Made by a program: the position numbers and the translations under genes. Below the pieces are notes generated by a model. It made no database searches and was not told where the DNA came from. It was given only the letters and a program-made list of their open reading frames with translations. Positions 52,603 to 59,318 of a DNA stretch of 64,000 nt are shown here, piece by piece. Within the stretch, counting starts at the first letter, position 1; every line of letters starts with the position of its first letter. Source of the DNA: Oscillospiraceae bacterium (lineage in GTDB: Bacteria > Bacillota > Clostridia > Oscillospirales > WRJC01). The stretch covers positions 1 through 64,000 of the forward strand of contig WRHM01000008.1 of the NCBI GenBank assembly GCA_009783265.1, written 5' to 3'.

Positions 52603-53347
52603 CGAAAAAATAATATATAATTTTAACGTAAATTCTTTTAATATAAAAGCCGAATATTATAATCGCGATATAAACGATATTTTTATCCCGTTGGTTCGGC
52701 GGCTTGATAAGATCAGACAAAACTCCGGACGAAGAATAATCGTTTATTTGGCCGGACCGTGCGGCTCAGGCAAAACAACGATTTCGCTTCTGCTTGAATC
52801 ATTGGCTCTCGCCAATACGGGCAGTTCCGCACAGGCTGTAGGCATAGACGGGTTTCATTTCTGCACAGAATATCTGAACAGTCATTATTTATACAAAAAC
52901 GGCAATAAAATATTGATGCGCGATATAAAAGGCAGCGCGGAAACGTATGATTTTGAAAAATTGCATAATAAAATAATCGGGTTAAAACACGGCGATATAT
53001 ACTGGCCGTTTTATGACAGGAATATTCATGATGTTGTTGAAGGTGCTACTTTTGTAAACGGACAAATTATAATTATCGAAGGGAACTGGCTTTTGTTAAA
53101 CGAACCACCTTGGCGGGAACTTGTAAAGTTATGCGATTACAGTATATTTATTGAGGCGGCTTGGAAAACGCTTATCAGCCGTCTGACTGATAGAAAAATA
53201 ATGGGCGGATTGAACGCAGAAACAGCAAAAAAATTTGTGATGCGGAGCGACGTCGATAATATAAAGCGAATATTAAACCGCAGGCTTGAATGCGATTTTA
53301 AATTGCAAATGCAGGAAAACGGCAGTTTTGCCATAAACAACAGTTAA
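52595..53347 (+). CDS. Nucleoside/phosphoribulokinase-type P-loop kinase
   Basis: A 250-residue protein with Walker A motif LAGPCGSGKTTIS at about 49-61, GIDGFHF at about 85 and IIIEGNWLLL at about 150. This is the pattern of the phosphoribulokinase/uridine kinase/pantothenate kinase family, and of related bacterial fructose-linked kinases. The substrate is unknown. The start at 52595 lies eight bases inside the URO-D gene, so both are translated together and may serve the same pathway. Confidence 0.82.
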   Translation: MDDEKIIYNFNVNSFNIKAEYYNRDINDIFIPLVRRLDKIRQNSGRRIIVYLAGPCGSGKTTISLLLESLALANTGSSAQAVGIDGFHFCTEYLNSHYLYKNGNKILMRDIKGSAETYDFEKLHNKIIGLKHGDIYWPFYDRNIHDVVEGATFVNGQIIIIEGNWLLLNEPPWRELVKLCDYSIFIEAAWKTLISRLTDRKIMGGLNAETAKKFVMRSDVDNIKRILNRRLECDFKLQMQENGSFAINNS

Positions 53348-53386: not shown

Positions 53387-55795
53387 TTACATCACACGAT
53401 ATACTCTCAGCCCCACGTTTTGTAACTGAGGTATAATATTTTCAGCAATATCGCGGTCTTTTTTCTTTTCTTCTTCAGGCAGTTCTTCCCAGGATAATAG
53501 GCACGGGTGCGTCGGATTTGGTTTGGCGTCAGGGTCTTTCACGAGACCGTATACCCAGCCGTCGATTATTTTTCCGTTCATCCAAACTTCATGCGCGCGG
53601 ATTGCCAGCCGTTCAATTTCGTTTGAATTAAAATTGTCCACAGTCTCAAAAATAGTCTTAGCCTTAGGGTCGGCGGCGTCATAATCACAGACAATCACAT
53701 CTAAAAACTGCGGGATTTCCTGTGCCTGACGGCGGTTATCTTCCTGTATATTTCCCGGCAGCTTTTCCCATGCCATATTATTGCTGCTATCCGGATTTTC
53801 TTCACAGAATGCCGAATGGATCTTCTTTGCGAGATCCTCCAGTTTGCTTTGCAGAGTGACGTCTTTTTGTACCAGCGCGAGAAAAGCCCTGCCGTCAACA
53901 TGCAAATTTAATTGGGCTTCGCTGGGCAGGCAAGCGGCATTGATCATACCGTCAACTGAATGGCTCATATCTAAAATCTGTTTCATGCTCCTTGCCCCAT
54001 GACGGTATTCCGGAATAAGCAGCATAGCTTCACGAACGTTTTTAGAAAGCCTTAGTTTAGCCTGTGCAAGTTGCCCATTTAGCAAAACAGCGCGGCGCAG
54101 CAAAAAGTTAGAATCTTTTACATCGCGCTTATTAGGTCCGAGAATATCCAGCGTTCCACGCAGGCGGCTGACAAAATCCGGTCCTTTCGCGTTTTTGAAT
54201 TTTATATACTCCGGATTATCTTCTTTCAGGTTCATGGGTCTTTCAAAATCGGCAAAGCAGGATTTTGTTCCTCCGGCAAATACCAGTATGCACTTACCGA
54301 TAGGGTGGGTGCCGGTTCCGTCATTCATCAGGCCGTCCTGCATAGGCATGAGAAAACTTTTCAGCCAGCCCAATTCCACATCGCCCCGGCGAGAATCGAA
54401 TTCATCAAAAAACACCAGCGGCAGCTTGCCCTGCAAAACAAGACTGCGCACATCCTGAAATGCCCTTGCGACATCGTCCTCGCTGCGGAACTGTGAAACG
54501 TTATATTCTTTTTTGACTATATTTTTAGATAAAGCCCCTGCAATTTGTTTAACGCCAAAAGATTTCCCCGCTCCGGGAGGACCAAATACCGCAAGCGATA
54601 ACGGGCATATATCGTCGTTTTCGCCGAAGTTTTTTTCCGCGTATTCTTTTATTGCGCTATAAATATCCTGATAAGACTCTATTTCCCGGCGATCGACAGT
54701 AGTCAGATAATTGAATGTCAAACGAGGTAAAGCAGTGGGCGGGCCATCTTCAAAAAAGTTGTATTCACGAATCATATCCCACATTGAGCGGAATCCTGAA
54801 ATAGAATCACGCGCGATACACCAGTCGGCATCCACTTCGCCGCTTGTTTTATCAACAGGGATTTCGATGGCTTTATTTCCGGCCGGCGAACCTTCGCCAG
54901 CAAAAATCAGCCCTTCAGTACCGGATTTTTCAAATAATTGAATTTCGTCGTTATTCAGTACATATCCGCACCCCAGCAGCTTGCCGCCAACCCGCAGGAT
55001 TCGATGCACATCATCAATCTCATTCATAGCATTAAACTGCCGTGCGGCTTCCGCCGCCATCACCGTAAAGGCGTCGGGCATTATTCCGGGCGATTTCTCA
55101 TGGTCATAACGCTGTGCGCCCTCGCTTAACCCGTTGTGCAGATACAACTCAGCAACTGTACCGCTATTTTTATTTTTTAGTAATATTGCTCCGTCTTCCG
55201 AGAAGAGAATTAATATCTCCGGTACTTGCAATAATGTCATCAAATCTGCATTGTTGCGTAACTGGCGCAGCAAATCAATAACTGTGCGCTCCCACGAAAT
55301 CCCTCTGCTGATCATCGCGCCGTTGCGCCATTGCCGCAGTAAATCCGCGTCTAATACAAGAGTATCGATATTTCTGATTTGCTTTTCATCGGGTAATGCG
55401 TTTTGGGATACCCACAATACCGGGCCGGTATCCGGCAAAGACAGCTTGCTCCAATCGCAGGGATCTTCAGCCCAAGCAATGATTTTCTGTCCATCTGTCC
55501 CGAACAAAACAGGCACACGGCTGCCTTCTATGAAGCCTTCCTGACAGTGCACGGCATAATAGTCGCGGTCACCGCCTTTTTTTTGTTTGATTTTATATCT
55601 ATAAAGTCGCAGACGCTCACGGGTCGCATTGTTATCAAGCTTAGCCTCAATCCCCAATAATTGCGCCAACAAAGCCGCACCGCCGGGCATGTGAAATTCC
55701 CGGCATTTATAATTTGAATTATATTGTTTGAGTTCAGTATATGAAAATATTTTATCCCATGCGTGCCCAATAATTATATAATCCGTATTTATCAT
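53387..55795 (-). CDS. Ribokinase-like + AAA+ ATPase + RyR domain fusion
   Basis: An 802-residue fusion. Residues about 1-270 look like a PfkB/ribokinase-type domain: an N-terminal GGAALLAQLL, ISRGISWERTVIDLL, then ILFSEDGAILL and GIMPDAFTVMAAEAARQF in the place of the ATP loop, without the usual GDxF motif. A AAA+ ATPase spans about 370-620 with Walker A FGPPGAGKS (Lys411), Walker B LVFFDEFD (Asp464-Glu465) and an LVFAGGTKS sensor-like strand. Residues 725-802 match the RyR repeat: AIRAHEVWMNGKIIDGWVYG, HPCLLSWEELPEEEK and DRD. It has no signal peptide, stands alone, starts after GAGGAG, and its GC is higher than that of its neighbours. A sensor or defence role is inferred. Confidence 0.85.
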   Translation of the reverse strand: MINTDYIIIGHAWDKIFSYTELKQYNSNYKCREFHMPGGAALLAQLLGIEAKLDNNATRERLRLYRYKIKQKKGGDRDYYAVHCQEGFIEGSRVPVLFGTDGQKIIAWAEDPCDWSKLSLPDTGPVLWVSQNALPDEKQIRNIDTLVLDADLLRQWRNGAMISRGISWERTVIDLLRQLRNNADLMTLLQVPEILILFSEDGAILLKNKNSGTVAELYLHNGLSEGAQRYDHEKSPGIMPDAFTVMAAEAARQFNAMNEIDDVHRILRVGGKLLGCGYVLNNDEIQLFEKSGTEGLIFAGEGSPAGNKAIEIPVDKTSGEVDADWCIARDSISGFRSMWDMIREYNFFEDGPPTALPRLTFNYLTTVDRREIESYQDIYSAIKEYAEKNFGENDDICPLSLAVFGPPGAGKSFGVKQIAGALSKNIVKKEYNVSQFRSEDDVARAFQDVRSLVLQGKLPLVFFDEFDSRRGDVELGWLKSFLMPMQDGLMNDGTGTHPIGKCILVFAGGTKSCFADFERPMNLKEDNPEYIKFKNAKGPDFVSRLRGTLDILGPNKRDVKDSNFLLRRAVLLNGQLAQAKLRLSKNVREAMLLIPEYRHGARSMKQILDMSHSVDGMINAACLPSEAQLNLHVDGRAFLALVQKDVTLQSKLEDLAKKIHSAFCEENPDSSNNMAWEKLPGNIQEDNRRQAQEIPQFLDVIVCDYDAADPKAKTIFETVDNFNSNEIERLAIRAHEVWMNGKIIDGWVYGLVKDPDAKPNPTHPCLLSWEELPEEEKKKDRDIAENIIPQLQNVGLRVYRVM

Positions 55796-56015: not shown

Positions 56016-56516
56016 ATGAAAATAACAGAATGCGACGAAAATCAATTTGTTGCCGATTTTTTCCCGATGATAGTGGATTTATGGTATGCTGACAAATATA
56101 ATCCCAAAAACGAACAGCATGTCGCATGGGTAAAACGAAAAATCCACGTCACATTCGAGGATTTCAGCGTGGCTTTGTGTGCATACACAGATGAAAATGA
56201 GCCGATAGGATTTTTCTGGTATAAACATGACACAGGGTTAGAAAACGTAAGATTTTGCGGGAAAGACGCGCATATAATTTCCTGCGGACTGTTTGATAAA
56301 TTCCAGAGGCGGGGCATCGGAACAATATTACTTGACGAAGTATGCAAAAGAATAAAAGAAAACGGCGGCGAATGCTTATATACAGACACATATACGGCAA
56401 ACGACGATTCTATGATGTTTTATATAAAACGCAAGTTTATACCCGTGGCGTTGCTTCCGGGACTGAACGGAATCGACGACGACGGTCAGGTATTTATGTA
56501 TAAAAAGTTAAAATAA
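56016..56516 (+). CDS. GNAT family N-acetyltransferase
   Basis: A 166-residue GCN5-related acetyltransferase. The acetyl-CoA motif reads FDKFQRRGIGTILLDEVCKRI at about 92-112, where R-R-G-I-G is the R-x-x-G-x-G/A loop. SVALCAYTDENEPIGFFWY and DDSMMFYIKRKFIPV fit the fold on either side. The acceptor is unknown. It starts after CGAGG, in a gap of 220 bp behind the divergent RyR gene. Confidence 0.85.
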   Translation: MKITECDENQFVADFFPMIVDLWYADKYNPKNEQHVAWVKRKIHVTFEDFSVALCAYTDENEPIGFFWYKHDTGLENVRFCGKDAHIISCGLFDKFQRRGIGTILLDEVCKRIKENGGECLYTDTYTANDDSMMFYIKRKFIPVALLPGLNGIDDDGQVFMYKKLK

Positions 56517-57485: not shown

Positions 57486-58532
57486 TTAATTCTGTTCGTC
57501 ATAAAAACTTCTTTCCCATTTCGCGAGGTCAGATACGGCGGCGGTTAAAGTTTCGTTCTCCCATTCGGAATGAGATCTACTCGATAATAAATCGCGCTCA
57601 ATAATATCATTTACAGCACACGCCGCGATATTGCCGCGCAAACCCCTGTCGCCCATATTTAATATATCTGTCAGAGCCGGTAATGCGTTTATTCCCATAT
57701 CTAAAATCGCATCATATTCTGTTTGGTGTTCTCTGATATAATTTCCGGTAGCGGACGACATCATTGGCGAGGACATAATAATTTCAAGATTGCGTTCGAT
57801 TATTTCGGCAATACTTTCAGCAGCAAACAGTAACGTTGCATCGTCGGAAGCACCGGAAACATACCGCGCGCCTTTGTCAGCGTATAACGGCACGGTCGCC
57901 GAACGGAATATTAACGCGCCGTCGTCGGCAATATCGAATCGGGCGATTTCTTCGCCGCTCCCATACTTGACTAATAATTCATTGCCAGTAAACGAGTAAA
58001 AACATGGGAATACCAACGCAAAACTGCTGATAGGCGGCGTAGAGAGCCTTGCCGTTCCGTCGTTATACAGCGTAACCGACAACATTTTAGTAAAACTGTC
58101 ATGTTCGGTCGCGTTTTCAAGAATATATTGTCTAAACGGCTTTTCGGGCGGATTACTGCTCATCACCCGCCATACATCATCGCTTTCAACTGCCAGCAGA
58201 TAATCGCGTCCGTGCCCTTTGAGTTCATAAATACGCCATGTGCTGATTTCATCAGTCGCATAACCAATTTCCCTGCCGCGTATTTTATTGGCATTATAAT
58301 TTTCAATATGCGCGACGAAATAATCGGTATCATCCCAAACCAGCTTCATATCTTTAAACCAAAAGGCCGGATTATCCTCATATACCATTTTCATTTCAAT
58401 AAGCGGTTTTGCAGTAGCTTTGTTTACCGCAAATCCAACGCTCAAAGCTGCTACGAGCACGACAGCCGCAATGATAATTATTATTCGCGACGGCTTTTTG
58501 AAATTCAACCAAGAGTGAAATAATTTTTTCAT
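57486..58532 (-). CDS. BlaR1-tail-like membrane protein
   Basis: A 348-residue protein with a short basic N-terminus and one membrane segment at about 20-40 that leaves the rest outside. The stretch ISTWRIYELKGHGRDYLLAVESDDVWRVMSSNPP at about 90-125 is very like the conserved block after the BlaR1/MecR1 sensor domain in Firmicutes. The kinase/peptidase part of BlaR1 is absent. C-terminal repeats of helix type (INALPALTDILNMGDRGLRGNIAACAVNDI) recall a HEAT unit. Function is unknown; a role in envelope sensing is inferred. I prefer ATG 58532 after GGGGGCAG. Confidence 0.6.
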   Translation of the reverse strand: MKKLFHSWLNFKKPSRIIIIIAAVVLVAALSVGFAVNKATAKPLIEMKMVYEDNPAFWFKDMKLVWDDTDYFVAHIENYNANKIRGREIGYATDEISTWRIYELKGHGRDYLLAVESDDVWRVMSSNPPEKPFRQYILENATEHDSFTKMLSVTLYNDGTARLSTPPISSFALVFPCFYSFTGNELLVKYGSGEEIARFDIADDGALIFRSATVPLYADKGARYVSGASDDATLLFAAESIAEIIERNLEIIMSSPMMSSATGNYIREHQTEYDAILDMGINALPALTDILNMGDRGLRGNIAACAVNDIIERDLLSSRSHSEWENETLTAAVSDLAKWERSFYDEQN

Positions 58533-58576
58533 TACTTCTGCCCCCTTTTTCATGTTCTTCTATGTGATATATTATA

Positions 58577-59104
58577 TCATTCTGCTATGCCTGCCTGATG
58601 TTTTAATAAATACCCATGTTCTTCTTTGATAAGTTTCTTGATTTCGCTTATATCATTTGCTTTAATATCCGGTATTTCGAGCGCGACTGCGCCGCAATGC
58701 GACTTGGTTTCGCCGTTGGAAAATGTGTATTTATATACGTGAGTATCAGGCTCTCCCGCGCAATAATCGCACTTGCCGCTCAGACAATTCGCATCGGAAA
58801 AACCCTCTTCCGATATAGCCGCGCATATAATATCGGCGAATCTTTGTGAATACTCCCGGCAAGCTGAAAATCTCAGGGCGAAAAACGGCGATTTGTCTTT
58901 GTTGATTCTTATGCCCGTTTTCGCCATTTGCTTATTGTGCAGGTCATGCTTGAATACTATGTATGACCTTTGTTTGTGCGGATTATATCCCAGTTCCGAC
59001 AAATAAATTATGATTTCATGATATACCGGTCCGATTTCGTCTCCGAACACTGACAGACTCGATAAAAACGAATTTATGAGTTCTTCCTGTTTTTTTGTTT
59101 TCAT
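58577..59104 (-). CDS. Hypothetical protein with CxxC motif
   Basis: A 175-residue soluble protein. Four cysteines lie at CLSGKCDYCAGE (about residue 120), a zinc-knuckle-like arrangement, followed by HVYKYTFSNGETKSHCG. The N-terminal helical half carries many Lys, Tyr and His residues. No known family comes to mind. I choose ATG 59104 after AAAGGA over the earlier ATG at 59131. The neighbours, a BlaR1-tail protein and a divergent APH-like kinase, give no clear hint. Confidence 0.6.
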   Translation of the reverse strand: MKTKKQEELINSFLSSLSVFGDEIGPVYHEIIIYLSELGYNPHKQRSYIVFKHDLHNKQMAKTGIRINKDKSPFFALRFSACREYSQRFADIICAAISEEGFSDANCLSGKCDYCAGEPDTHVYKYTFSNGETKSHCGAVALEIPDIKANDISEIKKLIKEEHGYLLKHQAGIAE

Positions 59105-59318
59105 GCAGATTCGCGTCCTTTCATATTTCATAATAGAAATTATATTTTTATTATAATATATTTATCATAATTTATCAAGCACAACTTGCCTATTAAAAAA
59201 AATTCTCAATTTAAGTGTTTTTTCATTCCGAAAAAATAATTATAATTATTTTTTATCTTTTATTTTTGATTTTATTCTGATATAATAAAAATAAACAAAA
59301 GCGAGGGGATTGCTATTT

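Follow-up and report, generated by a model that had tools for sequence, protein, structure and literature searches.

A pseudo-ribokinase/AAA+/RyR protein from an Oscillospiraceae bacterium as a putative receptor in TIR-linked, NAD-derived nucleotide signalling

Burroughs and co-workers reportedly proposed in 2015 that RyR domains act as nucleotide sensors in conflict systems. In Thoeris, where a TIR gene adjoins the effector gene, the known effectors carry SLOG-SIR2, Macro or caspase-type parts. A 2026 preprint describes phage RyR domains that bind or cleave the TIR-made signals 2′cADPR and 3′cADPR via H75, W78, H100 and D117 (PMC13232231); in RyDEP with 3′cADPR, H75 and D117 lie at the terminal ribose, W78 at the adenine and H100 at the phosphates, and RyDEP itself, a small protein of phages, acts in counter-defence by degrading cADPR or soaking it up (PMC13232231). 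Animal ryanodine receptors provide the second precedent: Repeat12 binds AMP-PCP and ADP, and in RyR3 the adenine stacks on W880 (W881 in human RyR1), whereas the phosphates are contacted by K884 and R895 (R885 and R896 in RyR1) (PMC12627627). The excerpted text of Schaeffer et al. (2020) deals with the eukaryotic calcium-store system and does not discuss bacterial RyR domains, and our literature search found no binding data for cellular bacterial RyR proteins. On the side of signal production, recent work established that DUF4062 is an NADase resembling TIR, the DUF4062 proteins of the Swarozyc group being NADases themselves (PMC13174449).

The gene described in the present study occupies positions 53387–55795 on the minus strand of the window, i.e. 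the whole 64000-nucleotide stretch of DNA that was analysed, and consists of a single 802-amino-acid ORF with an ATG start and zero internal stops. An earlier reading made from the sequence only had described a ribokinase-like/AAA+/RyR fusion, and our analysis confirmed this domain make-up, with the RyR part extended to a tandem. The features are as follows.

53387–55795, minus strand: whole gene, encoding a pseudo-ribokinase, an AAA+ module and a tandem RyR (R12-type) clamp (Pfam, structural model and a full-length homologue, 40% identical, in a congener)
54938–55795, minus strand: N-terminal ribokinase-like (PfkB-fold) domain, approximately residues 1–286, predicted to be catalytically dead (Foldseek, alignment)
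53861–54703, minus strand: AAA+ ATPase module, approximately residues 365–645, with ClpB D2, Skd3, ClpX and Vps4 as the closest folds (Pfam, alignment, Foldseek)
54560–54583, minus strand: Walker A, GPPGAGKS, residues 405–412 (G405, P407, G408 and G410–S412 invariant, n=67)
54395–54415, minus strand: Walker B, VFFDEFD, residues 461–467 (invariant, n=67)
54164–54166, minus strand: R544, invariant arginine in GPDFVSRL, a candidate arginine finger (alignment; putative role)
53675–53842, minus strand: divergent short RyR repeat, approximately residues 652–707, first half of the R12-type clamp (Foldseek, alignments)
53396–53626, minus strand: canonical RyR repeat, residues 724–800, with H735, W738, K742, K753, H763 and D780 (Pfam, alignments)

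To judge from these features and from the genes that accompany its relatives, we lean towards the view that the protein is an AAA+ receptor/effector gated by an ADPR-type nucleotide and acting in TIR/NAD-derived signalling, probably against phages.

The C-terminal RyR repeat that had been recognized from the sequence matched PF02026 with 48.9 bits over residues 727–798 (gathering threshold 27.4; 51.6 bits in the search of the genome). Foldseek aligned the C-terminus of the model with human RyR3 Repeat12 over approximately 190 columns (TMt 0.55–0.58), and because this match spans both repeats, the tail is a RyR tandem and not one repeat. As in animal Repeat12, the tandem would form an adenine-nucleotide cleft, but it belongs to an ATPase instead of a channel (PMC12627627), and its first repeat is short and divergent. 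Human RyR1 W881, R885 and R896 correspond to W738, K742 and K753, with no gap in the alignment between these positions. The likeness to RyDEP covers the R12-type fold and the H, W, H and D residues at matching spacing (H–W 3, H–D 17), by which H75, W78, H100 and D117 correspond to H735, W738, H763 and D780, so that all four are kept; three of them, H735, W738 and D780, remain unchanged when the protein is aligned with RyR proteins from Ruegeria and Pectobacterium phages, with a stand-alone RyR protein from a bacterium and with the TIR-RyR protein of the same genome. Within the family, position 738 is W, F or Y in 54 of the 58 members with a residue there and position 742 is K or R in 55 of 57, whereas H735, an aromatic residue at 738 and D780 are all retained in 35 of 67.

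The same residues bear on the idea that the RyR tandem quenches a signal in the manner of phage RyDEP, hydrolysing or soaking up the cADPR made by TIR and so serving as a ring-nuclease-like off switch, with the AAA+ part coupling signal removal to remodelling. The glycosidase dyad of RyDEP, H75 and D117 (PMC13232231), is indeed kept as H735 and D780, and the three-residue set is found in the 35 members just mentioned; however, other tested RyDEP homologues, although highly conserved, did not cleave (PMC13232231), and it is not obvious why a dedicated quencher should require a pseudo-kinase domain together with an intact AAA+ ATPase, so that we consider this explanation improbable. RyDEP also differs in setting, as the clamp of the present family is fused to AAA+ and ribokinase-fold domains in a cellular genome and relatives of the gene adjoin TIR genes.

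The AAA+ assignment was borne out by PF00004, which matched residues 403–471 with 27.6 bits (gathering threshold 21.2), and by Walker A and Walker B motifs that are intact in the window protein and essentially invariant across the 67 aligned members. A full-length AlphaFold model built from this 67-member alignment had a pLDDT of 89.5 and a pTM of 0.86, and Foldseek against the PDB placed its middle part with the AAA+ modules of ClpB, Skd3, ClpX and Vps4. The protein thus shares with the ClpB/Skd3/ClpX type the module fold, the Walker motifs and the arginine-finger-like R544, but carries different N- and C-terminal domains.

The N-terminal domain had been read as a ribokinase fold with no evident catalytic loop, a view that is upheld by fold comparison. 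In a separate AlphaFold model of this domain (pLDDT 86, pTM 0.89), all 50 of the 50 best PDB matches found by Foldseek were ribokinase-like kinases, with E-values of 1e-6 to 1.6e-4 and modest TM-scores of about 0.31–0.48. Sequence profiles did not reproduce this result: no Pfam family exceeded its cut-off in the first 390 residues, PF00294 (PfkB) matched none of the 59 N-domains (the window protein and 58 aligned relatives), and hhalign against the genome's own PfkB kinases gave no usable match with what was a shallow profile. Of the two checks that had been suggested for this region, the structure prediction therefore supported the fold and the PfkB profile search did not. PFKB signature 2, which holds the catalytic GAGD, is absent in 59 of 59 members, on which ground the absence of an evident catalytic loop stands, and the expected position of the catalytic Asp at the helix start, equated here by sequence alignment and not by superposition, is mostly S, A or T. 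Since R154, S167, W168, E169 and E225 are invariant in the family, the domain does have some conserved site.

A scan of approximately 85000 species genomes yielded at least 138 related loci, the best 80 of which were analysed. These 80 come from some ten phyla, archaea included, and comprise Bacillota, Bacteroidota, Actinomycetota, deltaproteobacterial lineages, Planctomycetota, Hydrogenedentota, Aminicenantes, KSB1, Zixibacteria, a Treponema and Methanosarcinales archaea. The family occurs patchily, being present in eight of 391 genomes of the same class, and its tree mixes phyla, with near relatives from unrelated phyla grouping together, which fits what transfer would be expected to give. 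An origin of the full protein from phages or plasmids was considered and rejected, as the phage matches listed covered only residues 571 onward and the match of one Streptomyces plasmid was restricted to residues 159–644. In a Clostridium group (L050–L094) and a Defluviitaleaceae group (L032–L043) the RyR part is degenerate, with no equivalent of D780, or absent, and these members have no signal neighbours; they have perhaps been re-purposed.

We labelled the ORFs around the 80 loci and in the window using TIR, DUF4062, SLOG, TrkA and RyR seeds, and checked the neighbour classes on representatives with Pfam and NCBIfam. At 34 of these 80 loci (the best 80 of at least 138), a TIR, DUF4062, SLOG or additional RyR gene is found no more than 4 kb away, with TIR at 12, DUF4062 at 11, SLOG at 11 and TrkA-type genes, mostly fused to RyR, at seven. 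The association is operon-like, the gap between the family gene and the signal gene often being less than 35 nucleotides on the same strand. The SLOG-type neighbours score near or below the cut-offs of the YspA/SLOG, DUF4231 and SLATT models, and for this reason their label rests partly on an ITGHR-type motif. Of the 369 ORFs lying up to 2.5 kb away, 47 received a signal-gene label, compared with two of the 447 ORFs that are more than 4 kb away (Fisher's exact test, 5e-15), a comparison that is partly circular since the seeds were drawn from the same loci. For this reason we repeated the test on a separate set of 20 RyR loci from the same class, where TIR or SLOG labels fell on nine of 87 near and two of 103 far ORFs (p = 0.025). 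The glutamate at the TIR catalytic position is conserved in all 12 aligned TIR domains, i.e. those of 11 partners and the genome's own. With DUF4062 being a TIR-like NADase, the neighbours belong mostly to NAD/ADPR signalling or nucleotide sensing. This agrees with the earlier expectation of defence genes beside homologues, as TIR, DUF4062-STAND, SLOG and RyR genes adjoin them in place of a fixed, unrelated core neighbourhood. At the 11 loci mentioned (among the best 80 of at least 138) the family thus resembles Swarozyc in having a DUF4062 gene no further than 4 kb from the AAA-RyR gene; it differs in that the NADase of Swarozyc is the DUF4062 protein itself (PMC13174449) and that the window genome has no DUF4062.

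Signal neighbours were present for 28 of the 35 members with H735, an aromatic residue at 738 and D780, compared with none of the 32 others. We examined whether RyR residues and neighbours have been lost together and rejected such a correlation as a result in its own right (sign test, p = 0.25); with only four changes of RyR state along the tree, the link between the ligand set and signal neighbours across the family is suggestive only.

The neighbourhoods also bear on a second alternative, in which the protein is an energy-status ATPase whose RyR tandem senses ATP/ADP, the defence-type neighbours being incidental since such genes cluster in islands. Although animal Repeat12 does bind AMP-PCP and ADP (PMC12627627) and approximately half of the aligned members lack signal genes, including the Clostridium and Defluviitaleaceae groups, the neighbours that do occur are NAD/ADPR-signal families, often less than 35 nucleotides away on the same strand, the family occurs patchily (8/391) and its tree mixes phyla; we therefore judge this alternative to be unlikely.

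The window copy departs from its relatives in several respects. It is monocistronic, with the end of the convergent neighbour at 53347 and the start of the divergent neighbour at 56016, and no TIR, SLOG or DUF4062 gene adjoins it. The description of a stand-alone gene with no adjacent partner accordingly holds for this copy but not for the family, in which 34 of the 80 loci have such a neighbour. Two ORFs of 355 and 184 amino acids elsewhere in the window (57486–58553 and 58577–59131, minus strand) have no Pfam, NCBIfam or PADLOC match. As to the window protein itself, no NCBIfam model exceeded its cut-off and no PADLOC defence family matched, the best E-value of 0.003 covering only 37 P-loop residues. 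The sequence-only reading had also taken the raised GC content as a sign of a mobile defence gene. The GC content is indeed higher (46.1%, against a mean of 40.9 and an S.D. of 3.4; third of 51 ORFs), whereas its GC3 ranks only seventh, and we set the mobile-element reading aside because the excess is only 1.5 S.D., no tRNA occurs in the window and the repeats near the gene are short and imperfect.

The TIR-beside-effector arrangement of Thoeris, which is absent at the window gene, is found in the congener G002, where two same-strand TIR genes accompany a full-length copy, 40% identical and with its RyR tandem doubled, the nearer TIR gene being approximately 23 nucleotides from the AAA-RyR gene. 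The likeness to Thoeris thus lies in relatives having one or more TIR genes immediately next to a gene whose product carries a nucleotide-binding sensor domain, and the difference in the use of RyR as sensor and AAA+ as output, as well as in the isolated position of the window gene. The congener locus (contig C33, L010:4351–11945) forms an operon-like row of the two TIR genes and the AAA-RyR gene; both TIR proteins contain DUF5050 and one also DUF6273.

In the window genome, the single TIR protein is at the same time the only other RyR protein, encoded on contig C1 at approximately 72.8–74.8 kb (L011:9796–11805) with no other recognized signal gene beside it. It combines a TIR domain with two RyR repeats and a hydrophobic N-terminal stretch, and its RyR tandem is 37% identical with that of the window protein over 153 amino acids. 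As the sole TIR protein is also the sole other RyR protein, the two proteins may work as a pair in trans, and we regard the TIR-RyR protein as a candidate partner. The window protein forms the longest branch of the family tree and is changed at 15 of the 125 columns that are strongly conserved, the median for members being 3, a divergence that could reflect relaxed constraint; nevertheless, every motif and ligand residue is intact. That the family is a TIR-linked effector family of which this copy is a partnerless, drifting relic would accord with the changed columns, the long branch and the empty neighbourhood, but 802 codons with neither stop nor frameshift, the intact motifs and ligand residues and the existence of a TIR-RyR protein on contig C1 make it doubtful.

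In the receptor/effector mechanism that we favour, a TIR or DUF4062 partner, whose gene is a close neighbour in many relatives and which in the window genome is possibly the TIR-RyR protein, would make an ADP-ribose-type nucleotide such as 2′cADPR, 3′cADPR or a relative. This nucleotide would enter the cleft that the two RyR repeats of the C-terminus form between them, where W738 is predicted to stack on the adenine, the phosphates to be contacted by K742, K753 and H763, and the terminal ribose by H735 and D780. Closure of the RyR clamp would then switch the AAA+ module, which is probably oligomeric, and the dead kinase-like N-domain may serve as a second binding or output module, for a second ligand or a target. 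The earlier suggestion of a ligand-gated ATPase is thus retained, with the sensor moved from the kinase-like domain, for which nucleotide binding is a guess, to the RyR tandem as the best-evidenced site.

Already known are the nucleotide-sensing proposal for RyR domains and the binding of TIR signals by those of phages (PMC13232231). Our search of the literature turned up neither a pseudo-ribokinase/AAA+/RyR family nor its linkage to TIR, and a 2025 preprint by Yirmiya et al. may already describe one. We tentatively suggest that the family could represent a widespread, as yet unlisted branch of TIR immunity, in which a pseudo-ribokinase-headed AAA+ machine uses a cADPR-type messenger in an RyR-type clamp as its switch. 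If this is right, an AAA+ output would be added to TIR immunity, and bacterial RyR domains would have a concrete and testable job, namely reading TIR-made, NAD-derived messengers; a named multi-phylum family, a congener operon, exact residues and a short list of candidate ligands are at hand for such work. Cellular RyR domains would then be receptors for TIR signals, from which role the phage RyR decoys, and perhaps animal Repeat12, would derive, explaining the decoys and touching on the long-standing question of direct cADPR sensing by ryanodine receptors.

Some loci of relatives showed further arrangements. At L028:2975–4474 and L030:921–2408, proteins of approximately 495 amino acids with an HTH-like start, that at L028 having no Pfam match, are encoded by ORFs that share a few nucleotides with the 5′ end of the AAA-RyR gene. 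At L079, an 859-amino-acid ORF located 147 nucleotides downstream of the AAA-RyR gene resembles, by eye, a fusion of a RelA/SpoT-type alarmone synthetase with RyR. Finally, at L134 and L135 (genomes G412 and G347), a different RyR protein of 575–578 amino acids is encoded approximately 25 nucleotides from a TIR gene, in one case also near SLOG, and might be another RyR effector.
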